In this document: positions 15,812 through 40,062 of the stretch, piece after piece
How the letters are laid out: each line of letters opens with the position of its first letter
Position numbering within the stretch: the stretch's first letter is position 1
The notes under the pieces: generated by a model
What the model was told of the DNA's origin: nothing
Databases searched by the model: none
The model's input: only the letters and a program-made list of their open reading frames with translations
Program-made: the position numbers and the translations under genes
Source of the DNA: a virus
DNA: 43,220 bases
Reading direction: 5' to 3' (one strand)
IMG/VR virus record: IMGVR_UViG_3300017963_000401
Coordinates: 1-43,220 of that record

Positions 15812-16504
15812 ATGGGTCGGACTATCTATACTCCTGAGCAACACAAGGAAGCCTGGGAGATCTATCTCAAGACCCAGAACTTCGCCGAGGTCGCACGCAA
15901 GTTCGGGATGAACTGGGAGACAGCGAAGAACTGGAGCAAGCCGGACTTCTCCTGTCCCTACGACTGCCCGTTTCACGGATACGACGCGCTGATGGCAGAG
16001 CATGAAGCAGCCCTCGTCACGCGCAGACGGCTGCTCGAGGCCGACGTGGTCAGTCCGATCAGCCACGCCAAGGCGACCAGCAACGCGATCGAGACGCTGA
16101 CGACGAACGTCCTTGGCTCGGACTACCCGATCAGCCGCACCGTCAGCGAGCGTCTTGCGCACCTTGAGTGGCTCTGGAGCAAGCTCTTCTACCACGCGAC
16201 CGGAATCCCTTTGGATTACGGTGACCACAAGGCAGAGGAGATCCTGACCCAATACCGCAAGGGTTTGAACGTGACCAGCATGGATCACGCTATCCGCGGC
16301 ATGAAGATGGTTCAGGATATGATGGACAAGCTCAGGGCTGCCGATGAGGGCAAGCCGTCCATCGAGGACGAGGAAGACCGTGAGATGTCGATCAGCGAAC
16401 TGCGCAAGTTGCGCAATTCTCTGAGCGGCCAGTCAGATCCGTCCGCTGTGAAGCGTATCCTACGAGGTGGTGATGCTTCCTCCTCCGCCTCCGCCATCGG
16501 ATAG
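15812..16504 (+). CDS. Small terminase subunit candidate (TerS)
   Basis: The 230-residue product begins with a helix-turn-helix (TPEQHKEAWEIYLKTQNFAE, then VARKFGMNWETAKNWS), as small terminases do to bind pac or cos DNA. It has a CPYDCPFH Cys pair, a long helical centre for oligomerisation (AIETLTTNVLG, then AHLEWLWSKLFYHATG), and an acidic C-terminus that could contact the large subunit. It lies directly upstream of, and overlaps by 32 nt, the large terminase gene. The Ser-rich last ten residues come from the overlap and are dictated by the polyproline codons of the next gene. Confidence 0.7.
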   Translation: MGRTIYTPEQHKEAWEIYLKTQNFAEVARKFGMNWETAKNWSKPDFSCPYDCPFHGYDALMAEHEAALVTRRRLLEADVVSPISHAKATSNAIETLTTNVLGSDYPISRTVSERLAHLEWLWSKLFYHATGIPLDYGDHKAEEILTQYRKGLNVTSMDHAIRGMKMVQDMMDKLRAADEGKPSIEDEEDREMSISELRKLRNSLSGQSDPSAVKRILRGGDASSSASAIG

Positions 16505-19061
16505 CGACCAGCTACCTCCTCCGCCCGCGCCTAGGGAACCAACTCCTCTTCCGGTCGTTGAGGAGGACGTTGTCCGGCTTGATGTCGCGGTCGATGAGCA
16601 CGTTCTCGGGCTTGATGTCGCGGTAGAAGATCCTCGTGTGCTCGAGGCGATTAACCGGCAGATCCTCTGGCACTACCTCGAGATCGACGCGAAGGGCAAG
16701 TTCAAGAACCCCCCGTCCACCGATGACGAACTCCACGAGTTCATCCAGATCGCTTACAACGCAAACATCCCGCGGAAGGCGATCGAGCCAGGGCACCGCG
16801 CACCTTTTGAGTTCATCGCGGACCTGTTCTTTGAGCGGACTCGCAATGCCCTAGCCTTCGCAAATCGAAGCGGCGGGAAGACGTTCGGGGTAGCGATCCT
16901 CAACCATCTCGACCTCCTATTTAAGTCGGGGTGCGAGATCGCGTCCGCGGGAGCGGTCAAGGCGCAGGCGAAGAAGGCTTACGGTTACCTGCAAGACTTC
17001 ATGCAGATGCCTTGGTTCATCTCGTTCTGCGAGAAGTTCGCCGAGGTGACTGGACGACCCTTCGTGAAGAAGGAGATTCAGGAGGAGACGAGCTACGCCA
17101 ACGGATCGAAGCTCGAGATCATCACCGGCACGGAAAAGGGTCTGCGCTCGCCTCACCCGCATAAGGCGCGCATCGATGAGATCGACCTAATCGAGTGGGA
17201 GATCCTTCAGACCGCACTCTCGATGGCTCACTCGAGCAAGGCAAAGGGGATCGTTGGGCAGAACGTGTTCACCTCGACGCGACAGCTTCAGAACGGCTCC
17301 ATGCAGCGAATGCTGGACGAGGCTTCAAACAAGGGCATTGAGATCTACGAGTGGAACGTCTGGGAGATGGTGGAGCGCTGCACTCGACGCTGCTTCGCTG
17401 ACCCGGAGCATGGAGACTGCCCGGTCTACACGTTCTGCAAGGGTAAGGCTCACGGGTCCGCGGGCTTCTTTCCGATCGAGGACTTCATCGACAAGGTCCG
17501 TCTGATCGACCGCGAGCGCTTCGAAGTCGAGTGGCTCAATAAGCGTCCGTCCCGCGAAAAGCTGGTCTACAGCATGTTCGACAACGGTCGGCACGTTATG
17601 ACCCGCAAGAAGCTCTACGAGATGACTCGCTGCCATCACCCTCAGATCACTTGGCCTCGAGTTGGTGGCATGGACTTCGGCTCTAGCCCTGGTCACCCGT
17701 TCGTCTATCTGAAGGTCACGCAGATGCCGACTGGTGCTTGGCTCGTGTTCTTTGAATACGTGGCGGAGCAGCGACTCATCCGTGACCACGCCAATGCAGT
17801 CAAGCGCTCACCGTTCTGGACTCGCTCCGAGCCGATCTACGCTGACTGGAGCGCACAGGACCGGCTCGAGCTTAAGGCTCTCGGTGTTCCGACGAAGCAG
17901 GCTCACAAGGACGTGTTGATGGGAATCGACCACGTCTCTAGCCTTCTTCGCGGTTTTCCTCCGGCTGAAGAACCGATGCTCTACGTCTGGGAAGACTGCA
18001 AGCACGTCCTCAGCGAATTCGGAAGCTATCGATGGCCGACCTACGCAGATGGTAGGGTCGATCGCACCGGGAAGCCGATGAAGGTGGACGATCACTGCCT
18101 TGCACCAGATACGCTGGTCTGCACACGGGGACACGGATGGGTCGAGATTCAGACCCTAGATGGCAAGGACGGGGAGATCCTTACCCCGGTCGGATTCCGC
18201 CCATATAACCGAGCACGCCAAACGCAGTCGAATGCTGAGGTCTACGAGGTGGTACTGTCAAACGGTGAAACACACCTCGCGACTGAAAACCACCTGTTTC
18301 TACTGGACTCTATGCGTTACGCTTCGGTAGCCGATCTCCATCCCGGTAGTCGGCTTTTGAAGGTGAGGCATGGACCTGAATCCAGTAGTCGTAAGCGAGA
18401 CGAAGCAGGTATTCCTTGGCGTTCCCTACTGGAAGTGCGGAAGGTATTTCAGCAGACCAAAGAAGGGCGGGGGACGGGAGTATCTTCATCGCTCGGTGTG
18501 GGAAGCGAGCCGCGGGGAGATCAAGCCTGGGTTTCATGTTCATCACGTAGACGAGGACACTTCAAACAACAACTTGGACAACCTCTGCTTGCTGTCGCCG
18601 AAGCAGCACTCAAACGAGCACATAAACGAGCAGAGGCGGAAGCAGTTGCGCGAGAACATGCTGAACAAAGCACTACCTGCGGCTTGCGCGTGGCACGCTT
18701 CAGAGGAGGGCCGGGAGTGGCACAAGCAGCACGGCAAGGAGACGTGGGAACGAAGGACCACAACTACCAAGACGTGCGAAGTCTGCGAAACCAGCTACGA
18801 AACCTTCTTCCCAAGCAGGAGCCGCTTCTGCTCTGCGAAGTGCAAGGCGAGAGCATTACGGGCGAGACGGTCGAAGTCAGCGAAGTCCGATTTGCCGGAT
18901 GCTCACCAGTCTGGTGCCTGAATGTTCCTGAGCTTCATTGCTTTTTGCTGAAGTCGGGCGTAGTCTCCCACAACTGCATGGACGCTTTGCGCTATGCTCT
19001 CTACTCGAGTAAGACGAGACGTGGTCCTCGCTACCGCGTGCGAAAGATGACGGGGATATGA
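16473..19061 (+). CDS. Large terminase subunit with intein (TerL)
   Basis: ATG 16473 follows ACGAGGTGGTG. The 862-residue precursor contains an N-terminal polyproline extension (LPPPPPPSDSDQLPPPP), the ATPase with Walker A FANRSGGKT (about residue 130) and Walker B RIDEIDLIEWE (about 232), a Cys cluster (ERCTRRC, then CPVYTFCKG), and the RNase H-like nuclease with MDFGSS (about 400), YADWSAQD (about 456) and VDDH plus CMDALRY. The last motif is interrupted after DDH by an intein (residues 542-834); splicing restores DDH-CMDALRYAL and a 569-residue enzyme. It pumps DNA into the prohead and cuts concatemers. The stop overlaps the next ATG. Confidence 0.92.
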   Translation: MLPPPPPPSDSDQLPPPPAPREPTPLPVVEEDVVRLDVAVDEHVLGLDVAVEDPRVLEAINRQILWHYLEIDAKGKFKNPPSTDDELHEFIQIAYNANIPRKAIEPGHRAPFEFIADLFFERTRNALAFANRSGGKTFGVAILNHLDLLFKSGCEIASAGAVKAQAKKAYGYLQDFMQMPWFISFCEKFAEVTGRPFVKKEIQEETSYANGSKLEIITGTEKGLRSPHPHKARIDEIDLIEWEILQTALSMAHSSKAKGIVGQNVFTSTRQLQNGSMQRMLDEASNKGIEIYEWNVWEMVERCTRRCFADPEHGDCPVYTFCKGKAHGSAGFFPIEDFIDKVRLIDRERFEVEWLNKRPSREKLVYSMFDNGRHVMTRKKLYEMTRCHHPQITWPRVGGMDFGSSPGHPFVYLKVTQMPTGAWLVFFEYVAEQRLIRDHANAVKRSPFWTRSEPIYADWSAQDRLELKALGVPTKQAHKDVLMGIDHVSSLLRGFPPAEEPMLYVWEDCKHVLSEFGSYRWPTYADGRVDRTGKPMKVDDHCLAPDTLVCTRGHGWVEIQTLDGKDGEILTPVGFRPYNRARQTQSNAEVYEVVLSNGETHLATENHLFLLDSMRYASVADLHPGSRLLKVRHGPESSSRKRDEAGIPWRSLLEVRKVFQQTKEGRGTGVSSSLGVGSEPRGDQAWVSCSSRRRGHFKQQLGQPLLAVAEAALKRAHKRAEAEAVAREHAEQSTTCGLRVARFRGGPGVAQAARQGDVGTKDHNYQDVRSLRNQLRNLLPKQEPLLLCEVQGESITGETVEVSEVRFAGCSPVWCLNVPELHCFLLKSGVVSHNCMDALRYALYSSKTRRGPRYRVRKMTGI
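16576..16624. repeat. 33-nt tandem repeat in the terminase N-terminus
   Basis: GGCTTGATGTCGCGGT occurs at 16576-16591 and 16609-16624, an exact 33-nt (11-codon) period. In the terminase frame it yields RLDVAVDEHVLG and LDVAVEDPRVLE. The complementary strand, read in one frame, gives YRDIKPENVLID followed by RDIKPDNVLLN, a protein-kinase catalytic-loop signature twice over. Confidence 0.7.
18096..18974 (+). mobile_element. TerL intein (293 codons) with nested endonuclease
   Basis: The element begins with Cys1 in CLAPDTLVCTRGHGWVEIQT (block A), has the block B Thr-x-x-His in LATENHLFLL, and ends with block F VWCLNVPELHCFLLKSG and block G VVSHN followed by Cys+1. All residues needed for standard class 1 protein splicing are present. 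The insertion point is inside the conserved nuclease motif of the terminase, a typical intein site. Instead of an in-frame endonuclease domain, the middle of the intein frame is open but low in complexity, because it is the alternate frame of a separate HNH gene. Confidence 0.9.
18370..18921 (+). CDS. HNH homing endonuclease nested out of frame in the intein
   Basis: ATG 18370 follows TGAAGGTGAGGC, a usable ribosome site. In-frame TGA codons at 18358 and 18364 rule out any longer upstream reading. The 183-residue product has the HNH_3 core: YLHRSVWEASRGEIKPGFHV, then HHVDEDTSNNNLDNLCLLSP and KQHSNEH, with the HHVDED pair as metal/catalytic centre. A C-terminal CEVCETSYETFF, then RFCSAKC zinc module resembles those of the other HNH protein here. 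Its frame is +1 relative to terminase-intein, which stays open across all 184 codons. It is expected to cut the intein-free terminase allele and drive intein spread. Confidence 0.9.
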   Translation: MDLNPVVVSETKQVFLGVPYWKCGRYFSRPKKGGGREYLHRSVWEASRGEIKPGFHVHHVDEDTSNNNLDNLCLLSPKQHSNEHINEQRRKQLRENMLNKALPAACAWHASEEGREWHKQHGKETWERRTTTTKTCEVCETSYETFFPSRSRFCSAKCKARALRARRSKSAKSDLPDAHQSGA

Positions 19062-22226: not shown

Positions 22227-23375
22227 ATGGCTTTCACTGGACGCGCCGTCTATGACACGGGCGTTTTCGACGGGATCGCGGAGGATGTCTCCGACGTGAT
22301 CTCCATGATTTCGCCTTTCGAAACCCCCGTGCTGGACCGAATGGCGCAGGCCCCGCGGCCCGCGTTCAACGTCCTCCACGAGTGGCTCGAGGACGCTCTC
22401 AACCCCAACACCGTCGCCACCTCCGCGCTCGCTACCGCGGCGACCGGCGCGACCTCGATCGAGCTTCAGAAGGACACCCTCACCGGGGGTGCCGTGACGC
22501 AGTTCCTTCAGGTCGGTGCGGTCCTTCAGGTGGAGTCCACCGGGGAGTACCTCCAGATCACCGGCAAGAGCGGTGACTTCATCACCGTCGATCGTCAGTT
22601 CGGCGGCACCACCGCGGCCACGATCGCCGCGGGCACCGCGCTCTACGTGATCTCGGACGCCTCGCTCGAGGGTGCCGACGTGGTCGCGGACATCAGCCGT
22701 CCGCGCGTCCGCAAGACGAACTACACCCAGATCTTCAAGAAGGATCTGATCGTCAGCGGCACCGTGCAGGCGACCCAGCAGCTTGGTGGCATCTCGGACG
22801 AGATGGACTACCAGCGCACGCAGCGTCTCCGTGAGTCGCTGCGCGATCTCGAGAAGGCAGTGATCCGCGGACGCTCTTCGGGCAACACGCTCGGCAGCAG
22901 CACCGCGTACCGCACCTTCGACGGCATCCTGGCTCAGATCGCGACCAACATCGCGACGATCGGTTCGGTCGGCGGGCTCACCGTCGATGCCCTGAACAGT
23001 GCGATCCGTCTGGCCTGGGACAACGGTGGCACCGACATCGACGTGATCGTCGCGGACGCCAACCTGAAGCAGCAGATCGACAGCTTCAACGACACGCGCG
23101 TCGAGGTGATGAACCGCGACGAGCGCTTCCACCAGCGCGTCAGCATGTTCGAGAGCACCTACGGTGATCTCGAGGTCGTGTTGGGTCGCTGGATGCCCCA
23201 GAACTCGCTGATGATCGTCAGCAGCCAGCGCGTCCACGTCGTCCCGCTGCGCGGTCGGTCCTTCCAGTTCCAGTCCGTCTCGCGGACGGGCGACGCCGAG
23301 AAGGGCATGGTCATCGGCGAGTACACCGTCGAGGTCCACAACGAGGAGGGCATGAGCCAACTCTTCGTCGGCTAG
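22227..23375 (+). CDS. Major capsid protein (SU10/DUF5309-like)
   Basis: The 382-residue product begins MAFTGRAVYDTGVFDG and has ISPFETPVLDRM, HEWLEDALNP and an inserted beta domain (residues about 75-145), then a spine-helix-rich region (MDYQRTQRLRESLRDLEKAV) and the final barrel strands (SQRVHVVPLRGRSFQF). Motifs and order match the SU10 family of HK97-fold capsid proteins (DUF5309). It assembles the icosahedral head with the scaffold encoded upstream. Codon use is GC-rich and regular, as for a highly expressed gene. A strong hairpin follows the gene. Confidence 0.9.
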   Translation: MAFTGRAVYDTGVFDGIAEDVSDVISMISPFETPVLDRMAQAPRPAFNVLHEWLEDALNPNTVATSALATAATGATSIELQKDTLTGGAVTQFLQVGAVLQVESTGEYLQITGKSGDFITVDRQFGGTTAATIAAGTALYVISDASLEGADVVADISRPRVRKTNYTQIFKKDLIVSGTVQATQQLGGISDEMDYQRTQRLRESLRDLEKAVIRGRSSGNTLGSSTAYRTFDGILAQIATNIATIGSVGGLTVDALNSAIRLAWDNGGTDIDVIVADANLKQQIDSFNDTRVEVMNRDERFHQRVSMFESTYGDLEVVLGRWMPQNSLMIVSSQRVHVVPLRGRSFQFQSVSRTGDAEKGMVIGEYTVEVHNEEGMSQLFVG

Positions 23376-28614: not shown

Positions 28615-29151
28615 ATGACCCTCATCGCTTCTTACGGAGGACCCGACTCCAACAGCTACATCGACGTGACCCAGGCGAACTCCTTCATCCGCACTGCGAT
28701 CATCGACAACGCTGCGTGGATCGCTCTGACCAGCGCGCAGAAGCAGGCTGCGCTCATTCAGGCTAGCCGGGACATCGACAGCAGGACCTACCTGGGAACT
28801 CGCTACTACTACGAACAGCGTCTCGAGTTTCCGCGGCAGATTCGCTCGGCCTTCCCCTACAACCGAACCTCCACCGAGACGCTTACCCAGGACGTTGTCC
28901 AGAAGCGGATGCGCGAGACGGTGCAGGAAGCGTGCGCTCAGCAGGCGAACTACATCGCTCGCAATGGTGGGCGGAACAAGGACGCGGAGAACATCCAGAA
29001 CGGGATCGTCTCGATCAGCGAGTCGGTCGGGCCGATCCGTGAGTTCGTCCAGTATGGCAAGCACGCCCGCGTCTCGAGCGCACGTTTCAGCCACGAAGCT
29101 CTTCAGCTTCTCCAAGAGTGGATGGTTGGGCGTAGGATCTACCGCGCATGA
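28615..29151 (+). CDS. Head-tail connector, DnaT-like/gp6-type (178 aa)
   Basis: ATG 28615 is preceded by AGGAGCGCAGC. The product begins MTLIASYGGPDSNSYIDVTQ, has helical repeats (QKQAALIQASRDIDSRTYLG), FPRQIRSAFPYNRTSTETL and a C-terminal QYGKHARVSSARFSHEALQL. This is the pattern of head-completion/adaptor proteins often labelled DnaT-like. It should bind below the portal. It overlaps the next gene in an ATGA. Confidence 0.75.
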   Translation: MTLIASYGGPDSNSYIDVTQANSFIRTAIIDNAAWIALTSAQKQAALIQASRDIDSRTYLGTRYYYEQRLEFPRQIRSAFPYNRTSTETLTQDVVQKRMRETVQEACAQQANYIARNGGRNKDAENIQNGIVSISESVGPIREFVQYGKHARVSSARFSHEALQLLQEWMVGRRIYRA

Positions 29152-29524: not shown

Positions 29525-30517
29525 GTGGCTGAGATTCCGCCCCTAGACGATGAGCGCCTGGACCTTCTGGTCGCGATCTACCTAAATGGGGCAGACATCC
29601 TGAGACGCCGTTTGAGCAACTTGCTGACGGAAGACAGGGGTGCGCAGCGCTTACTCCTTTTCCAGCAAGTGCTTGAGATCCTTAGCCGTCTGGAGAAGGA
29701 GACGGACGCCTGGAGCGCTACCTACGTGCGGCAGTTCGTGGACGAGGCGAGCGCGGAAGCTGTGAGCGTCCTACAGGCCGCGGGAGCGACTTCCACCACT
29801 CTCTTCGCACCGATCGATGAGCGCGCCGTACGGGCGCTCGCTGACAGCCTGACGGGCAATCTGGCGAAGGGACGTGAGTCGATCGCTACCCTGGCGCAGC
29901 GGATCTTCAGGGGTCTGGCACTCGAGCAGGAGTTCCCGGACCTTGCTCAGAAGGCACAAGCCGAAGTGGGTGTTGGACTTAGCGCACTTGAGGAGGACTT
30001 CCGCATCCGGAGCAGGATCCAAGGTCTGCTCCGGGAGCGGTTCGAGGACGGGGTCGTCTCGGTTCTCGCCAAGAACGGCAGGCGCATGTTCTTCCCGCTG
30101 GACTTCTACGCGGGCATGGTGGCTCAGAACGTGAAGGCTCAGGCTAGGTCCGTTGCCACGCTCGAGCGGGCGAAGCAGGCAGGGTTTGACCTCGTCCGCG
30201 TCACCGTCAACCCGAGCACGGTAGGTGACTACTGCGACGCTTACCGCGGACGCGTCTACTCGATCAGCGGGAGCGATCCGGTCTTCCCACCGCTGGCTGC
30301 TCTTCCGAACGGTGGTCCTCCGTTCCATCCTTGGTGCAAACACGGCATTGGGATCTACGTTCCAGCTTTCCACACACCTGAAGAGAATGAGGAGAGAGCA
30401 AATACCGACCCGCGCTTCCTCATGGAGCCCAACGAGGATTCGCCGAACCGGGTGATTCGCAACTACTGGGAGGCTGAGCGCAAGGGCACGCTTCCCGACG
30501 AGATCAAGTTCATCTGA
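29525..30517 (+). CDS. Minor head protein, Mu gpF/SPP1 gp7-like (330 aa)
   Basis: GTG 29525 starts the frame. The N-terminal two thirds are helical (RGAQRLLLFQQVLEILSRLE, then LAQRIFRGLALEQEFPDLAQ). The C-terminal part has DYCDAYRGRVYSISGSDPVF and GPPFHPWCKHGIGIYVP, the Cys/His box of minor head proteins related to Mu gpF. Those proteins sit near the portal and can be injected with the DNA. It lies well downstream of the portal here, not next to it as is usual. Confidence 0.8.
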   Translation: MAEIPPLDDERLDLLVAIYLNGADILRRRLSNLLTEDRGAQRLLLFQQVLEILSRLEKETDAWSATYVRQFVDEASAEAVSVLQAAGATSTTLFAPIDERAVRALADSLTGNLAKGRESIATLAQRIFRGLALEQEFPDLAQKAQAEVGVGLSALEEDFRIRSRIQGLLRERFEDGVVSVLAKNGRRMFFPLDFYAGMVAQNVKAQARSVATLERAKQAGFDLVRVTVNPSTVGDYCDAYRGRVYSISGSDPVFPPLAALPNGGPPFHPWCKHGIGIYVPAFHTPEENEERANTDPRFLMEPNEDSPNRVIRNYWEAERKGTLPDEIKFI

Positions 30518-30999
30518 TGGCTGTTGGCATCGAAATCAACGTGGAGATCGACCCACGTCTCCAGGGCTGGCTGAACAATGTCGGATCCAACTTCGATCAA
30601 GCGCTTCTAGCCGGAGTCCAGGCTGTCGGAAACTTCGTCGCTGAGCGAGCGCAGCAGAACGCACCAATCCTCCGCGGACCTCTGCGCCGCTCGATTCGTG
30701 CTGAGCTTCCTCGAGAGCAGGCGGGAGGAGAATACTCCGTCCTCGTGGTGGCTGGTGAGCGGTATGCCCTCACCCAACACACGCTGCTTACCCCTTCAGG
30801 ACCCTGGCAGCTTGGACCTGTCTCGATTCGCCAGCCTCTTACTCCAGAAGGTGGAGTCGGTGGTGCTTACTTGCGCCGCGCCGCTTTCTTGAACGTCGAT
30901 CGGATTCGTGACGGACTCGCAGCGTATGTTCAGCGTGGCGTGTCGGCGACCTCACGAATCAGGATCACCGCACGGACCATCGAGCCAACCCGCAGCTAA
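30517..30999 (+). CDS. Tail completion/neck protein, HK97 gp10-like (160 aa)
   Basis: The ATG overlaps the preceding stop (TGATG). The product contains GVQAVGNFVAERAQQNAPIL, then RGPLRRSIRAEL and GEYSVLVVAGERYALTQHTL, matching the pattern VA..A...AP..TG.L..SI of HK97 gp10-like tail-component proteins. It likely forms the top of the tail or a head-tail interface ring. Confidence 0.75.
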   Translation: MAVGIEINVEIDPRLQGWLNNVGSNFDQALLAGVQAVGNFVAERAQQNAPILRGPLRRSIRAELPREQAGGEYSVLVVAGERYALTQHTLLTPSGPWQLGPVSIRQPLTPEGGVGGAYLRRAAFLNVDRIRDGLAAYVQRGVSATSRIRITARTIEPTRS

Positions 31000-31018: not shown

Positions 31019-34000
31019 ATGAACCGACCCCTGACGATTGGCCTGGCTACGCTCGGCCTTCCCTTCACCGGCAACACTCTTGAGAAGCGCGGACTCGGAG
31101 GTTCCGAGACTGCTGCGATCTCTGTTGCTCGATCGCTCGCCAAGCTTGGGCACCGGGTCATGGTGTTCTGCAACTGCGAAGAGGAGGGTGTGTTCGACGG
31201 TGTCTCCTACTACGGGGTTGACAAGTTCGCCGCGATGAACCGCACGATCGCGTGGGACGTGTTCATCGCGAGCCGCTGGCCGGAATTCCTCACGCAGCCG
31301 AACAAGGCTGCCTGGCGAGTGCTCTGGCTGCACGACACGATCCAAGACAAGGGTCGGCTCTGCGGGAACCTCTACCAGACGGACGAGATCTTCCTCCTCT
31401 CCGACTTCCACATCGACAACTACACGGTCGGGACGAACGAGAAAGACGAGAAGGAGAACAAGATCGCCGAGTTCCGGCAGTTCATGTGGAAGACGAGCAA
31501 CGGCATCGACCTCGACCTGATCGAGAAGCACCGGCAGGAGAAGGTGCCGTTGCGGTTCTTCTACTCGAGCCGACCGGAGCGCGGACTGCACTGGCTTCTG
31601 CGCGACATCTGGCCGAAGGTGCTCGAGAAGTATCCGCAGGCGACCTTGCACTACTGCAACTACAGCCTGGGAGGGATGCAGGTTCCAGAGCACGTCACGC
31701 AGATCAACGCGATGTGCAAGGAACTCACCCAGCGCTTCGGCGACTCGGTCGTGAACGTCGGACATCTCACGAAGGACCGGCTCTACGAGGAGATGTCCAA
31801 AGCACAAGCGCTCCTCTACCCGACCGACTTCCCTGAGATCTCCTGCATCACGGCTATGGAGGCTGCCGCCTGCAAGACGCCGATCATCACGACTGATGAC
31901 TTCGCTCTGCGGGAGACGGTCGGGAACAGCGTCAACGGGTTCCTAATCCGCGGCAAGCCGGGGACGGAGGAGTACACGGCAAAGTTCGTGCGCAGGCTGG
32001 ACTTCCTGCTCTCCAACCCAGACATCGCGAAGTCCATGCAGGACGATGGTCCCCAGTGGATCATGCAGCGTGGCTACACCTGGGATGCAGTCGCGGAGAA
32101 CTGGACGGCTCACTTCCGGGAGAAGCTCGCTCACCGTGTCGCGACCAAGCCCACCGAGATCGTTTCGGAGCTTCTGCGCTCCGGCAACGTGATGACCGCG
32201 GTGGACTTCGCCAAGAGCGTTCCGGGTCATGGGCTGCTCGCTCGTGCCGAAGAGGAACTCGCCGAGGTCACCAGGCAGGACCCGATCGACCCCGAGAACA
32301 TCACGAGGATGATTCAAGACGCGCTGCCTCGCTTCAAGCGCGCAGCCGAACTCGTAGCTCGTTCTCTCGAGCGCACTCCGAACTACATCATCGACTTTGC
32401 CAGCGGGGTCGAGGGTTTCGGCTTGGTGGCAGCCAAGATGTTCCCTGAAGCCCAGGTCGTTATGTTCGACGCCGACGAGGAGATCGTCAGCCTGCACGCG
32501 AGGTCGATCGAGCAGATGGGGCTTGGGGATCGTGTTCAGGTCCACGTCGCGACCTCGATCCCAGGCGATTACCACAAGAAGGCCGATGTGGTGTTCGTCG
32601 GCGGGTACTTGGAGAGCCTCCTCCGACCGTGGGAAGAGTTCGAGTGGCTCAGTCGCATTCCTCAGAACGATGGGGTGCTCGTCGTCACGTCGAAGACCGG
32701 AGCGACTTCGGCGACGCTTGAGGATGGTGCGCCACGTCTCTGGAGCCTGACCCAAGAGGACTACTCCGAGATGGTCGGCACCGAGGTCGCTGCGCGCCTC
32801 GCCTTCGTGGAGGAGGACATCAGCGACGGTGGAGACATCCAGGGTTCGTGGGTTTGCGTGTTCGGTGTCGAGAACGGCGGGTTCAAGGCGCAGCCCCTCA
32901 ACACCGTCCGCAGGGTCGAGATCACTCGCCCCTACCAGAGCCTTGCTGTCTGCATGATCGTGCGGGACGGAGAGGACTACCTGGCGAAGTGCCTCAAGCA
33001 CGTCGAGCCGATCGCCGACAAGATCGTGGTCGCGTTCGACACGCGTACCAGCGACCACACCAGGCAGCTTTTCGAGTGGCACGTTCCGCAGGAGAAGCTC
33101 GAGATCCGCGAGGTCGAGTTCGACCATTTTGCGCAGATGCGCAACGCCAGCATCGAGGGCGTGACGGAGGACTGGATCTTCTGGCTGGACACCGACGAGA
33201 TCGTGACCGACCCAGCCAAGCTTCGTCGCTACCTCCACACGACCATGCTCGAGGGCTTCGGCATCAAGCAGTGCCACCTCATGCTCGACGTTCACGGCAC
33301 CTTCGATATGCCGATTCGCGTTCTACGGAATCGTGAGCACTACCGCTTCGTCGGCTGCATTCACGAGCACTGCGAGGACACGTCGAAGGGCGGCTACGAC
33401 AACCCGATCCGCCCGACGATGCTGATCCCCGACGTGAATCTCGCGCACTACGGCTACCTGCACGAGCGGCAGCGCAGGGACAAGTGCTCGAACCGGAACA
33501 TGGCTCTTCTCCAAAGGGACCACGACGTGTATCCGGGTCGGCAGTTGACCTGGGTCCTGATCCAGCGCGACCACATCAACGTCGCCAAATGGAGCAAGGA
33601 GCGGGAGAAGCAGCAGAGGATTCTCCCAGGAAGTCCTGCACACAAGCATCTCGAGGCAGCGATCAGGCTCTACCTGACGCACCTGGCAGACCCCTCGCAC
33701 GTCTACAACAAGCTTGCCTTTCCGATGTATCAGGAGGCTTTGGCGATGCTCAGCGAGAACAAGCTCTGCTACGCAGATCGCCCCTGTCCTCCCTTCTCGA
33801 TTGCTCTCGGGCTCTCCGCCAGCATGGGCAAGCAGGCGAACAAGGGTGTCGAAGCTGACGACCGATGGTTCCTCGACCGTGACGAGTGCCGCGCCTTCTT
33901 CGGCACTCAGGTCGGCCAGATGCTCGTGCGTCTTGGTGCTCAGGGCATGGACGACTACAAGCAGCAGACCAAGGAGTTCAAGCCGATCGAAGCCGCCTAC

Positions 34001-34072
34001 CCGCCCGAGGCCGCAAAGCTGCTCGAGATGGGCACCAACGCGATTCACACGAAGACGGGCAGGCTGCGGTGA
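31019..34072 (+). CDS. Trifunctional GT4-methyltransferase-GT2 glycosylation enzyme (1017 aa)
   Basis: Three domains read off in order. Residues 1-380 form a GT-B glycosyltransferase: RGLGGSETAAISVARSLAKL, NGIDLDLIEKH, YSSRPERGLHWLLRDI and the EX7E signature in DFPEISCITAMEAAACKTPI. Residues about 440-620 form a Rossmann methyltransferase-like domain: YIIDFASGVEGFGLVAAKMF, VVMFDADEEIVSLHARSIE, VFVGGYLESLL. Residues about 638-860 form a GT-A (GT2) transferase: SLAVCMIVRDGEDYLAKCLK, VVAFDTRTSDHT and the metal-binding WLDTDEIVTDP. A helical tail follows (about 860-1017). It would build a glycan, perhaps on virion proteins, since it lies between neck and tail genes. Confidence 0.85.
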   Translation: MNRPLTIGLATLGLPFTGNTLEKRGLGGSETAAISVARSLAKLGHRVMVFCNCEEEGVFDGVSYYGVDKFAAMNRTIAWDVFIASRWPEFLTQPNKAAWRVLWLHDTIQDKGRLCGNLYQTDEIFLLSDFHIDNYTVGTNEKDEKENKIAEFRQFMWKTSNGIDLDLIEKHRQEKVPLRFFYSSRPERGLHWLLRDIWPKVLEKYPQATLHYCNYSLGGMQVPEHVTQINAMCKELTQRFGDSVVNVGHLTKDRLYEEMSKAQALLYPTDFPEISCITAMEAAACKTPIITTDDFALRETVGNSVNGFLIRGKPGTEEYTAKFVRRLDFLLSNPDIAKSMQDDGPQWIMQRGYTWDAVAENWTAHFREKLAHRVATKPTEIVSELLRSGNVMTAVDFAKSVPGHGLLARAEEELAEVTRQDPIDPENITRMIQDALPRFKRAAELVARSLERTPNYIIDFASGVEGFGLVAAKMFPEAQVVMFDADEEIVSLHARSIEQMGLGDRVQVHVATSIPGDYHKKADVVFVGGYLESLLRPWEEFEWLSRIPQNDGVLVVTSKTGATSATLEDGAPRLWSLTQEDYSEMVGTEVAARLAFVEEDISDGGDIQGSWVCVFGVENGGFKAQPLNTVRRVEITRPYQSLAVCMIVRDGEDYLAKCLKHVEPIADKIVVAFDTRTSDHTRQLFEWHVPQEKLEIREVEFDHFAQMRNASIEGVTEDWIFWLDTDEIVTDPAKLRRYLHTTMLEGFGIKQCHLMLDVHGTFDMPIRVLRNREHYRFVGCIHEHCEDTSKGGYDNPIRPTMLIPDVNLAHYGYLHERQRRDKCSNRNMALLQRDHDVYPGRQLTWVLIQRDHINVAKWSKEREKQQRILPGSPAHKHLEAAIRLYLTHLADPSHVYNKLAFPMYQEALAMLSENKLCYADRPCPPFSIALGLSASMGKQANKGVEADDRWFLDRDECRAFFGTQVGQMLVRLGAQGMDDYKQQTKEFKPIEAAYPPEAAKLLEMGTNAIHTKTGRLR

Positions 34073-34254
34073 ACCAAGACCACGAAAAGCAGCGGGAAAG
34101 GCTAGTAGACTTCATTCGCACCTTGCAGGAGCGGCAGTTCTTCGGGAAGGTGGAGGTGGACATCCAAGCGGGAAACATCCTGCGGGTGGTGAAGACCGAA
34201 TCCATCAAGCTGGAGGATCAAGGTGACGAAGCTCCCCAAAGGCGTGGGCCGTAA
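34069..34254 (+). CDS. Small DUF2292-like protein (61 aa)
   Basis: GTG 34069 overlaps the glycosyltransferase stop (GTGA). The product reads ERLVDFIRTLQERQFFGKVE, then VDIQAGNILRVVKTESIKL, the helix plus FGKVxVxIQxGxIxxVxxxE pattern of DUF2292 proteins, a small two-strand domain common in bacteria and phages. The end overlaps the next tiny gene. Function unknown. Confidence 0.65.
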   Translation: MNQDHEKQRERLVDFIRTLQERQFFGKVEVDIQAGNILRVVKTESIKLEDQGDEAPQRRGP

Positions 34255-34335: not shown

Positions 34336-34725
34336 GTGCCCAAAGACAGCAACCTACTGCTCGAGCTATTGGCAGCCTATCTGGCTGCCAATAGCGTAGG
34401 TGTGCTTGGCGAAGACCTTTGGATCCAAGCACTTCCGGTCGAATCGGAGAATGGGGTCGTCGTCGTGCATACAGGCGGCGTCTCCTTCCCAGACGATCCG
34501 ACCCGACGACCGGCGTTTCAGGTCGTCGTCCGCAACGTGAATGCCGAGGCGGGCTTGGCAAAAGCGGTGGAAATCAATAATCTGCTGGACAACAAGTGGA
34601 ACGTCCTGCCCAAGTGGCCTGGACGAATCACGGCAACTGCTGAGCCAGGAACCTACTTCAAGGACGACGCGGGACGGGTTAACTACCCGCTCAACTACGT
34701 GATCGTCACGACGACCCAGCGCTAG
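34336..34725 (+). CDS. Tail terminator-like protein (129 aa)
   Basis: GTG 34336 follows the tandem stop of the preceding gene. The product has N-terminal LLLELLAAYLAANSVG, then DDPTRRPAFQVVVRNVNAEA, GLAKAVEINNLLDNKWNVLP and a beta-strand end NYPLNYVIVTTTQR: the alpha/beta pattern of phage tail terminators that cap the tail tube. It directly precedes the tail tube gene. A perfect 12-bp inverted repeat lies at codons 11-20. Confidence 0.7.
   Translation: MPKDSNLLLELLAAYLAANSVGVLGEDLWIQALPVESENGVVVVHTGGVSFPDDPTRRPAFQVVVRNVNAEAGLAKAVEINNLLDNKWNVLPKWPGRITATAEPGTYFKDDAGRVNYPLNYVIVTTTQR
34366..34394 (+). repeat. Perfect 12-bp inverted repeat inside the tail terminator gene
   Basis: CTATTGGCAGCC (34366-34377) and GGCTGCCAATAG (34383-34394) surround TATCT. 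It encodes LLAAYLAANS near the start of the gene. A stem of this strength 30 nt after the start codon could slow or gate translation. Confidence 0.8.
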
Positions 34726-36197: not shown

Positions 36198-36424
36198 CTG
36201 AGCGCTTTGGGACCAGCTTCGATGACCTGATCTCGAGACACACGGAAGGACAAATCCTCCTCCTCTCCGTGGGTTTCCGCAGGTATCAAGCCTGGCTCCA
36301 AGGCGATCAGCCAAGAAAGCAAGCCGAACCTAAGCCGAAGAAGTCGCAGAAGAAGCCTTTCGCTAAGATGACCGGAGAGGAATACATGCGACACGTCAAC
36401 CGGACTGGTAGAGGCTTCATCTAA
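36107..36424 (+). CDS. Tail assembly chaperone T extension (via frameshift)
   Basis: This frame has no start of its own that I trust; it is entered from the G frame at 36107 by a -1 slip, giving a fusion of about 258 residues. Real-looking sequence begins ANRLAHVGDAHAASR and continues with RFGTSFDDLISRHTEGQILL, then FRRYQAWLQGDQPRKQAEPK and EEYMRHVNRTGRGFI. The basic Lys/Pro linker is typical of T domains that bind the tube protein. The stop overlaps the tape measure ATG (TAATG). Confidence 0.8.
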   Translation, partial: ANRLAHVGDAHAASRDQVRPLEEHARWAVLTERFGTSFDDLISRHTEGQILLLSVGFRRYQAWLQGDQPRKQAEPKPKKSQKKPFAKMTGEEYMRHVNRTGRGFI

Positions 36425-39400
36425 TGGCCGGCGTGAACATCGGCGGCATCAACCTGAGTATTCGGGTCGATGGTCGAGGTGCTCGTCAAGAGCTTTCGAA
36501 CACGCAGCGGAACCTCCTCCGCTTCAATCGGACGCTCAGCGACACCGAGAACGAGACTCGGAACCTCACGCAGCAGATCGGTGCGCTTCCCACAGCTATT
36601 GCGGCTGTGGGAGCCGCGCTGGGTGCTGCTCGACTAGCTGCCTTTGGTCGTGACGCTGCGCTGCTTGCCGCTCGCGTAGAGAATCTGGCGACTGTCCTCA
36701 ACAACGTCGGTCGTATTGCTGGGCAGAGCGGAACCCAGCTTGGTGTTCTCGAGCGGAACGTCAAGCGACTGGGTATTACGACCCAGGCCGCTCGTCGGTC
36801 GCTCACCCAGCTTGCCCAGGCGAACATCGACCTGAGCCGCGCCGCGGAGCTTACCCGCGTCGCTCAGGACGCTGCGGTCATCGCGGGTGTCAACTCCTCG
36901 CAGGCTTTCGAGCGCCTCGTTCTCGCGATCCAGCGAAACGACGTTCGGCTCCTCCGCAACCTGGGCATCGTCATCAACCTGAACAACGTCTATGCACGCT
37001 TTGCTCAGGAGACGGGACGCACGACGAAGAGCCTGACCGCATTCGAGAAGCGGCAGCTTGTCCTGAACGAAGTGCTTGACAAGGGTCGGCTGATCGCAGG
37101 CACCTACGAGGCTGCCCTTCAGGATGTCGGTAAGCAGATCTCCTCGCTGCCCCGACTCACTGAGGAGGCGACGGTCGCGGTCGGCAACCAGTTCCTTCCG
37201 GTTCTCCGCGAAGGTGTCTCCGCGGTCAGTGACTTCCTGAAGGCTTTCCCCAGCGGAGGCGCGTTCATCACTCCTCGAGCCGTGGCGAACATCATTACGT
37301 TCGGAACGGCTGTCGTAGGTCTTGGCGCAGCCGCAGGGAGCGTCAAGCTCCTGACCGTGGCGTTTGGGGCGCTGACCGCACTGACTGGTCCGATCGGTCT
37401 TCTGAGTGCTGCGGTTGTTGGTCTTGGTGCTCTGGCCGCGACTGCGTTCGTTGACGCCACGATCGAGGCGGAGAACTACCGCAAGGAACTCAACGAACTC
37501 AAGAGCACCCAGCGTGAGTTCTCGCAAAGCGTGTTCGACACCCGCAGGGACCTACAGGATCTTGGCGGCGAGACTGCGTTCGAGACGCTTAGCGAGGACG
37601 CTGCTCGCTTCGACTCCTTCGTTCAGAGACTTGCGCTTCGCTTTCCGCAGTTCCGCAAGGAGCTTGAGGCAATTCGCGAAACCGGAAGCATCGCTGAGCT
37701 TGAGGCGTTCTTCGGTGTGCAGCTTCCCCGTGCTCTGCAAACCTCTCAGGGTGACGTTCAGGAACTCCAGACGCAGCTTGCTGCTGCCGAGCAGACGTTT
37801 CGTAACGAACTTGAGCAGACGCTCAACCTGCGCGAACGCGAGGCTCGAAATCTAGAACTCACCGACCGCGTCAAGCGTGATGGGTTGGTGCTTAGCATCA
37901 AGAGCAACAGAGTTCTCGAGGCGCAGCGAGCGGTGCAATCTCAGTTGAATACGGCTGTTGAGCAGGGCGCTGAAGTCTTCGCCCGTCAAAACAAGGAGCT
38001 TTTGGAGGCTGAGCCTCTGCTTCGCGGTGCTGCTCGTGCGGCGATTGAAGCTCGAGAGGCTCTTGAGGGCGCGGAGCGTGCCCAGCTTTTCGCTGACGCG
38101 CAGCAGGTTGATGCTGAACTCAAGGTTCTTCAGCAGGCTGCCAACCTTGCGATCAACGAGACGAAGAAGCTCCAGACCCAACGACGCAACCTGTTCAAGA
38201 ACACGAACGCGCGGATCCTTCTGGACTTCACCCAGCAGCAGCAAGCGCTTCGAACTGAAGCAGTCAAGACGGACTCCGAGCTTCGAGATGCCGCAAACAC
38301 CTTCCGTGAGGCGCAGGAGGCGGAAGCGGAGGCAACGTTCCAGTCGAAGCAGCGTCAGGCGCTCGCCATCGAGGATCTCGATAAGCGCGAGAAGGCTCTC
38401 AGCAATGCTCGGCGGGAGCGGGTTCGCACGCTTGAGCGTATTGAAGAGCAGGCGACCAACATCGTCAGCGAGGGAACGCGACAGCGGGAAGCGATCCTTG
38501 ACGCAGAAGCACTCTCCATCGACATCGTCAATCAGCGGCTTTCGCGACAGCGGCAAGAGCTTCAAGCGCTTATCGAGACGCAAGAGCTTCAAGCTGCTGG
38601 TGTGAGCCCTCGTCTCATCAAGTTGAACGAGCAGCTTGCTAAGGCACGAGAGGAGTCGATCCGCTCCGTCAACGGTCTTCAGATCGCCATCGCACGTTTG
38701 GACAACCAGATCAGAAAGCGAGAGCTACAGCTTCAGGATCGTGCAGAAGGGGATTCGGCTCTCGCTGCTGCTCTTGGCGTTTCTGATCCGCAGCTTCGGA
38801 AGCTCCGCAACGCACTTGAGCAGGCACAGCGTCTACAGGAGGAGTCCTTCACCGAGATCGAGAACCGGCGTGCTCAGCTTGCCGACCAGACGCGGAAGAG
38901 GATCGAGGAAGACTTCCGTCGCATCGAACAGGAAGAACAGCGGATTCTGAACCGGGTCCGCAAGATCCGCGCCGCGGGTGAACTTGAGGACGAAACCCCA
39001 GACCGCAGTTTCGAGGGGCTGAACCGCTCGATCCGCCAAGCTCGCCAGCAAGGGCTCGAGGTTCAGAACTTCCTCCGCCAGTTCCGTGCAGAGCTTTCTG
39101 AGCGCGGGCTCGGGACGGCTCTCTCGAACGACATCGACGTGTTCTCTCGTCGGATCGACCTCATCCGCCGAAGCACGCGAGACGTGGCAATTCCCGGATT
39201 CTCTGATCTGACGCAGACGGTTGAGCAGTTCCGGCAGACGCTCGAGCGTGCATCCAGTCCTCAGCAGATTCAGCAGCTTGAGCGAGCCTTCGCCTTCACC
39301 CTGCGCGATCGAATCGTGCAGAGTCGAAACGAGCTTCGTGGTCTGCGTGAGCAGCTTGAGGCGTTCCGCACTGGGGGCCGACGCACACAAGAGCGTGATC

Positions 39401-40062
39401 AGCGCCTCGAGCGGCAGCGGCGACTCAACGAGCTTTTCGAGGCTGGTGTGGATCAACAGACCGCTCGCCGAGAGATCTCCCGTCTCGAGGCAGAGGATCG
39501 CGCCAAGCTCAACGCGCAGGAAGAGGAACTCGAGAAGAAGATCCGTGAGAGCCAGCGCAGCCAGAAGGCGCTGAACGACGAGGTACGTCAGATCGAGGAG
39601 TCCTTCTCGACGCTAGCCGACAAGCAGCGAGCGGCTGTTCAACAGTTGGTCGAGGACCAGAAGGAACTCAACCGGCTCAAGCGTGAGGAGCTTTCTCTCG
39701 AGGAGAAGGCACTCGAGGCTGTTCGCAAGCGGAGGGCTGGGGCGACGACGGCTGCGGAACGATTTGGCGCAATCGACGCTCTACCGACCGACACCGGAAT
39801 CGGAGACTCCATCACGAAGGAAATCGCGGCGCAGCGCAAGGAGTTGGACGATACCGGAAGTGAGGTCGTCAACCGACAGAAGAAGGTCACCAAGGGACTC
39901 ACCGAGCTTCAGCAGCTTCTCGCCCGAAACCTCAAGAACATCGGAGACGAGTTCCAGATCCAAGACCAAGTCATCGCGCAAACGGTGCGTGAGATTCTCG
40001 TCGGTCAGCGCAACCTTCTCGTCCGGTCGCTGAACTCTCGCACTGGTGGAGCACCGCGCTAA
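36424..40062 (+). CDS. Tape measure protein (1212 aa)
   Basis: This is the longest gene and directly follows the tail chaperones. The product begins MAGVNIGGINLSIRVDGRGA, has a hydrophobic stretch AAAGSVKLLTVAFGALTALT, then GPIGLLSAAVVGLGALAATA (about 300-340) like other tape measures that interact with the host membrane, then nearly 850 residues of continuous coiled coil rich in Gln, Arg, Glu and Leu. No lysozyme or peptidase domain is recognised. At 0.15 nm per residue it predicts a tail near 180 nm. It overlaps the next gene (TAATG). Confidence 0.9.
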   Translation: MAGVNIGGINLSIRVDGRGARQELSNTQRNLLRFNRTLSDTENETRNLTQQIGALPTAIAAVGAALGAARLAAFGRDAALLAARVENLATVLNNVGRIAGQSGTQLGVLERNVKRLGITTQAARRSLTQLAQANIDLSRAAELTRVAQDAAVIAGVNSSQAFERLVLAIQRNDVRLLRNLGIVINLNNVYARFAQETGRTTKSLTAFEKRQLVLNEVLDKGRLIAGTYEAALQDVGKQISSLPRLTEEATVAVGNQFLPVLREGVSAVSDFLKAFPSGGAFITPRAVANIITFGTAVVGLGAAAGSVKLLTVAFGALTALTGPIGLLSAAVVGLGALAATAFVDATIEAENYRKELNELKSTQREFSQSVFDTRRDLQDLGGETAFETLSEDAARFDSFVQRLALRFPQFRKELEAIRETGSIAELEAFFGVQLPRALQTSQGDVQELQTQLAAAEQTFRNELEQTLNLREREARNLELTDRVKRDGLVLSIKSNRVLEAQRAVQSQLNTAVEQGAEVFARQNKELLEAEPLLRGAARAAIEAREALEGAERAQLFADAQQVDAELKVLQQAANLAINETKKLQTQRRNLFKNTNARILLDFTQQQQALRTEAVKTDSELRDAANTFREAQEAEAEATFQSKQRQALAIEDLDKREKALSNARRERVRTLERIEEQATNIVSEGTRQREAILDAEALSIDIVNQRLSRQRQELQALIETQELQAAGVSPRLIKLNEQLAKAREESIRSVNGLQIAIARLDNQIRKRELQLQDRAEGDSALAAALGVSDPQLRKLRNALEQAQRLQEESFTEIENRRAQLADQTRKRIEEDFRRIEQEEQRILNRVRKIRAAGELEDETPDRSFEGLNRSIRQARQQGLEVQNFLRQFRAELSERGLGTALSNDIDVFSRRIDLIRRSTRDVAIPGFSDLTQTVEQFRQTLERASSPQQIQQLERAFAFTLRDRIVQSRNELRGLREQLEAFRTGGRRTQERDQRLERQRRLNELFEAGVDQQTARREISRLEAEDRAKLNAQEEELEKKIRESQRSQKALNDEVRQIEESFSTLADKQRAAVQQLVEDQKELNRLKREELSLEEKALEAVRKRRAGATTAAERFGAIDALPTDTGIGDSITKEIAAQRKELDDTGSEVVNRQKKVTKGLTELQQLLARNLKNIGDEFQIQDQVIAQTVREILVGQRNLLVRSLNSRTGGAPR

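Follow-up and report, generated by a model that had tools for sequence, protein, structure and literature searches.

What is made from a single 1017-codon open reading frame lying among the head, neck and tail genes of an uncultured tailed phage, and on what would its product act? The window analysed here is a stretch of 43,220 nucleotides (IMG/VR record IMGVR_UViG_3300017963_000401, positions 1 to 43,220), and the original prediction was that this ORF joins a GT4-like glycosyltransferase (GT), a Rossmann methyltransferase (MT)-like domain and a GT2-like GT into an assembly line that builds a methylated glycan on virion or host targets. Pfam and AF2 bear out the ORF, its three domains and the folds claimed for them. 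The AF2 model of the whole chain (pLDDT 90.3, pTM 0.88), made with an alignment, A3, of 66 full-length relatives plus the window protein (67 sequences), runs from a GT-B domain through a helical linker, a confident Rossmann domain (residues 456-616) and a GT-A domain (642 to about 800) to a helical C-terminal domain that ends at about residue 1003 (Table 1). In addition, matches to phrog_2170 and phrog_13126 agree with Pfam for both GTs. The three enzyme domains of the prediction thus stand, but the prediction had overlooked the helical domain at residues 816-1003 and the fact that the MT active site has decayed.

Table 1. Coordinates of the fusion gene, its domains and motifs, and neighbouring genes in the window
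Feature	Position	Strand	Evidence or comment
GT4-(MT)-GT2 fusion, 1017 aa, ATG start	31019..34072	+	ORF, Pfam, AF2, at least 66 non-redundant full-length relatives
GT-B / GT4 domain, residues 1-376	31019..32146	+	PF00534; VIA Z 34.9 to 6kih
EX7E motif, E273-E281	31835..31861	+	of 67: position 273, 59 E and 8 D; position 281, 67 E
Helical linker, residues 377-452	32147..32374	+	AF2
Class I MT-fold domain, residues 453-617; window copy judged degenerate	32375..32869	+	
ExxEH position, residues 529-533	32603..32617	+	G529, E532, S533 in window
Residue 573	32735..32737	+	Arg in window, His in 64/67
GT-A / GT2 domain, residues 638-815, SunS/GmaR-like	32930..33463	+	phmmer, VIA
DTD, residues 724-726	33188..33196	+	both D in 67/67
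HEH, residues 782-784	33362..33370	+	H782 and E783 in 67/67
C-terminal helical domain, residues 816-1017	33464..34069	+	AF2; low confidence after about 985
Major capsid protein	22227..23375	+	phrog_1328 1.3e-65
Head-tail adaptor Ad1	28615..29151	+	phrog_477
Minor head protein	29525..30517	+	PF06152, phrog_4611
HK97-gp10-like neck/tail-completion protein	30517..30999	+	PF04883 (7.5e-6), phrog_5
61-codon ORF between fusion and tail terminator	34069..34254	+	GTG overlaps fusion's TGA stop (GTGA)
Tail terminator	34336..34725	+	PF12691 (3e-10)
Tape measure protein	36424..40062	+	phrog_3779

A chance fusion or an assembly artefact was considered and ruled out, because a second virus record, the 72.9-kb sister record, carries the same gene with 2 nucleotide differences, and because 82 distinct ORFs in GT4-GT2 order were found among the matches listed. 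The first IMG/VR scan, made with the single protein, returned the sister record as its sole match; scans with alignments of the GT4 part and the GT2 part returned at least 80 loci each. Among the matches listed, 150 distinct ORFs have a domain match (82 GT4-GT2, 27 GT2-GT4, 33 GT4 only and 8 GT2 only), a tally that includes truncated ORFs and, within the 82, two records of the window gene. At least 66 non-redundant full-length relatives from these matches share the GT4-MT-GT2 order, with contig-edge starts, ORFs longer than 1110 aa, short middles, copies of the window gene and sequences more than 88% alike left out. The full fusion was not found in any cultured phage, the best matches in phage collections covering at most 34% of the query, and in GTDB genomes the full-length copies lie on MAG contigs, with matches in named isolates spanning the GT2 region only. 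The fusion also lies on a 45,800-base contig assigned to a candidate Zixibacteria MAG; this contig equals IMG/VR 2708742752_000002 in length and is possibly the same viral contig (L179, L137). In the open-licence literature on phage GTs, no description of this fusion family was found.

The N-terminal domain is a GT4 enzyme by Pfam (PF00534, Glycos_transf_1, 48.2 bits against a cut-off of 26.4, residues 241-345), by its GT-B fold and by its EX7E motif. Its closest solved structures include sucrose-phosphate synthase (6kih; VIA Z 34.9, rmsd 2.7, 338 residues aligned) and, in the same fold search, MshA (3c4q; Z 33.9). The EX7E and DTD motifs named in the original prediction are both present, as E273/E281 and D724-T-D726, and R185, R188 and E281 are invariant on the GT4 side in 67/67 sequences. 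In two relatives (L091:3178-7011 and L121:3172-6999) an HNH intein of about 280 residues interrupts the EX7E motif itself, between the first E-x-S and C-I/L-T-A-M-E, with matches to PF14890 (6e-17 and 3e-22, respectively) and to HNH_3.

For the GT-A domain, Glycos_transf_2 (PF00535) scores 25.0 bits when the domain is scanned alone, against a cut-off of 23.3, and 22.6 bits, just below, in the whole-chain scan, where the match spans residues 644-732. In addition to the DXD motif, the residues R708, N709, D724, D726, H782, E783, H810, R826 and N827 are invariant in 67/67 sequences, and both GT active sites of the window copy are intact.

The closest relatives of the GT-A domain point to the kind of acceptor that it may use. 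At E<=0.01, its only matches in the PDB by phmmer are GmaR (4.3e-11), SunS (1.9e-6) and a ThuS-type chain (3.5e-6). The GT-A domain and C-terminal part were folded separately (pLDDT 90.6), because the GT-B domain fills the PDB list of the whole-model fold search, and this model matches SunS (VIA Z 21.7, rmsd 3.4, 261 residues aligned) and ThuS (Z 21.4) ahead of the next match outside that family, WrtF (Z 17.7, 227 aligned). The alignment with SunS extends into the C-terminal helical domain (model residues 1..331), and the likeness to SunS and ThuS, seen in sequence, thus includes the fold of the helical domain that follows the GT-A domain. GmaR is absent from the GT-A fold-search list and was found by sequence searches only. 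The NCBIfam equivalog model for glycocin S-glycosyltransferases (TIGR04195) gives 34.5 bits against a cut-off of 350, and the window GT-A is accordingly best described, on sequence grounds, as a distant relative of SunS and not an orthologue. With that cut-off far from reached, a SunS-like fold is not proof of a peptide acceptor. GmaR, SunS and ThuS are not known to have an N-terminal GT4 domain or an MT domain. As described in the parts of the two papers drawn on here, GmaR attaches GlcNAc to flagellin, with its TPR part thought to hold the substrate (PMC9638930), and SunS glycosylates a peptide (PMC8620827). Thus, the nearest studied relatives of the GT-A domain act directly on protein, and the suggestion of protein or virion glycosylation is strengthened by both sequence and fold.

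The middle domain is where the window copy and its family part company. In the window protein no Pfam MT model exceeds its cut-off (PF05175, 21.0 bits against 23; PF13489, 17.0 against 27), the weak whole-chain matches lying at about residues 441-560, whereas Methyltransf_23, _25 and _11 all have matches at E<=1e-3 in every one of the 60 relatives that were scanned. The class I fold itself is retained, with an AF2 Rossmann domain that carries acidic residues, D459 and D484, after beta-1 and beta-2. The family consensus reads LDYGC..G, an acidic residue after beta-2, and ExxEH...H. In plant HEN1, according to the text consulted of PMC10781085, Mg2+ is bound via E796, E799, H800 and H860, and the protein has the motifs LVDFGCG and GVDI. 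The two His columns of the family are 43-45 residues apart in 42/67 members; the spacing in human HENMT1 is 45, as taken from residue numbers in the same source (PMC10781085). In addition, a profile of 60 intact middle domains matches UbiG, bacterial Hen1, plant HEN1, a D-glucose O-methyltransferase and many other class I MTs in the PDB. Because of the HEN1-like ligand motif and these PDB matches, the MT of the family is most simply read as a putative metal-using O-methyltransferase, its probable kinship with HEN1 and UbiG being based on these profile matches, the motif and the spacing.

The metal-ligand quartet of this motif is EEHH in 63/67 members, the exceptions being GESR in the window protein, NDSK in L089, EEWR in L009 and EGHH in L135. 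The window copy, with G, E, S and R, therefore does not carry HEN1-type metal ligands, although the loop at residues 565-568, near residue 573, is of low AF2 confidence. The window protein, L089 and L009 fall into a single clade (support 0.97) that lies within a wider set of intact members; its sister, L091, reads EEHH by eye, and more distant neighbours are intact too. Within this clade, the MT domains are 22-28% identical, compared with 41-65% for the GT4 and GT2 domains, an MT/GT identity ratio of 0.47-0.48 that is undercut in only 1.5-2.7% of 1147 intact pairs (pairs that are not independent), and the MT domain of the window branch has diverged about 2x as far as the GT domains. The methyl step was likely lost once, in the branch of the window protein, L089 and L009, to go by the clade and its broken quartets.

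These observations bear on the original proposal that all three domains are active in the window copy and build a methylated virion glycan. In its favour, the MT fold is kept, Pfam identifies the family enzyme as a genuine class I MT, and D459, D484, D523 and E532 are all present, so that SAM binding, or catalysis by a different mechanism, may persist in the window MT. Set against this are the replacement of three of the four near-invariant quartet positions, losses in both nearest relatives, the faster divergence of the domain and the lack of a Pfam MT match above cut-off, and we consider activity of all three domains distinctly unlikely. The substituted quartet and the diverging MT leave little support for a methylated glycan in the case of the window copy, though one is likely for the family. 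Of the combination that had been predicted, two GTs with an MT-like domain, both GT sites are thus conserved, but the MT quartet is broken here.

Where the gene lies is informative about its role. The window order is terminase large subunit (from 16467), portal (19665), scaffold-like (21377), major capsid, Ad1, minor head and gp10-like genes, then the fusion, the 61-codon ORF, the tail terminator and the tape measure gene, so that the placement claimed for the fusion, between gp10-like and tail terminator genes, holds (PF04883 upstream, PF12691 downstream). The terminase ORF (16467-19061) is long, at 864 aa, and its residues 784-853 match phrog_28563. The 61-codon ORF has a homologue in L089 (6e-11) and is possibly translationally coupled to the fusion. 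The gp10-fusion-terminator order is retained in L089 and L009, and in L092 gp10 lies upstream and a terminator homologue downstream. In the flanks of the relatives, which reach up to about 6 kb and are often incomplete, at least one of eight head, neck and tail families is found near the fusion in 57/66 cases and none in 9/66, and a homologue of the major capsid protein is found in 46/66, in 44 of these upstream within 1-5 genes. Among the 107 immediate same-strand neighbours, the commonest PHROGs include major head protein and head-tail adaptor families, plus HNH endonucleases, with phrog_1005, phrog_29 and phrog_195 having 8 members each (sets that may overlap). Such repeated placement near structural genes in different phages favours a virion-related role, the context being evidence of co-location and not of the target. 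By eye, the major capsid protein and the tail-tube candidate have no clear Ser/Thr-rich acceptor tail.

A different use of the same enzyme would be to modify host surface or appendage proteins (flagella or pili, for instance) or host glycans and so block superinfection, with the late-operon site serving expression only. GmaR, the closest solved homologue of the GT-A domain, does act on flagellin (PMC9638930, in the part consulted), but the position between the major capsid and neck/tail genes recurs in different phages, and we regard a host target as unlikely. Late-gene timing, moreover, is unusual for exclusion functions. DNA is likewise an unlikely target. Glycosylation of DNA by viral GTs is known (Pyle 2024, as cited in PMC12619734, itself drawn on in part), but the GT-A domain resembles protein GTs, the gene sits among structural genes, and neither the 43-kb window nor the 72.9-kb sister record, both of which are possibly incomplete, contains a gene of the thymidylate-synthase family. 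In the TET/JBP search, no control gave a match. Hypermodification of phage DNA with sugars by the fusion is, in sum, very improbable.

A virion-directed role has precedents, and these temper the novelty claimed for a chain that combines two GTs with an MT. The A064R protein of PBCV-1 combines two rhamnosyltransferases, one GT domain being of the GT-A type, with a class I O-methyltransferase on one experimentally studied polypeptide, which builds the end of the glycan on the major capsid protein, its third domain methylating O-2 of rhamnose (as given in the portion of PMC9614988 drawn on). A further viral protein, A111/114R, has three GT domains (PMC7826918, likewise in part). In domain content alone, the fusion is of the A064R type; it differs in size and order, with 638 aa as GT-A/GT/MT in A064R and 1017 aa as GT-B(GT4)/MT/GT-A(GT2) here, and A064R, a protein of an algal virus, lengthens an N-glycan that is already in place and has an MT that is active, whereas that of the window copy is judged broken. 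Since A064R already joins two GTs and an MT, the fusion is a phage variant and not a new kind of protein. What is new in the phage fusion is the domain order, the SunS/GmaR-like GT, the wide distribution and the decayed MT of the window copy.

Phages also offer reversed GT2-GT4 fusions. Caudoviricetes sp. ctKR88 and related records have GT2 and GT4 on one chain near the major capsid gene, but in the opposite order, as GT2-TPR-like-GT4, and by eye with no MT between the GTs. In podovirus ctKR88 itself (MW202524; L003:3120-5432), further GT-like genes follow. In ctf1B273 (MW202497; L006:1245-5564), the GT2-TPR-like-GT4 frame is apparently broken into two ORFs that flank a GroEL-like ORF, an MT-like ORF comes next, and the whole set lies between terminase and portal. 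A record labelled Listeria phage (OR848533; L005) resembles host DNA, with MotA-, MotB-, GmaR- and CheV-like ORFs by eye. In mycobacteriophages, capsid and tail-tube glycosylation is known (PMC12363180, PMC12619734, PMC11256854, each drawn on in part), and Che8 and Corndog resemble the present case in encoding GTs that decorate capsid and tail-tube proteins (PMC12363180, PMC11256854). The GTs of Che8 and Corndog are not known to be three-domain fusions.

We therefore favour, at roughly even chances, a soluble two-step GT that sugar-coats a virion protein and has a decayed MT in its middle. The fusion would be a soluble, late-expressed and bifunctional enzyme of virion glycosylation, in which the C-terminal GT-A domain, with the helical domain binding the acceptor, would attach the initial sugar to a virion protein through a side-chain hydroxyl (or thiol), a step modelled on GmaR with flagellin and SunS with sublancin. 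The N-terminal GT4 domain, a retaining one, would then add a further sugar, an order that we infer from homology. In most family members, the central MT would O-methylate the growing glycan with the help of a metal ion bound at ExxEH...H. The window branch has lost this site, and its MT domain is probably only a spacer or scaffold. More tentatively, uncultured tailed phages in large number may share a one-polypeptide assembly line for O-glycans on a virion protein, made of a GmaR/SunS-type starter GT, a HEN1-like metal-dependent MT and a GT4 extender, from which the window branch would have dropped methylation but retained the fused domain layout. If this is right, a single chain would both begin and lengthen a glycan, the members with intact and broken MTs would provide a natural comparison for the role of the methyl group, and many uncultured tailed phages would have in common the ability to glycosylate their virion proteins autonomously.
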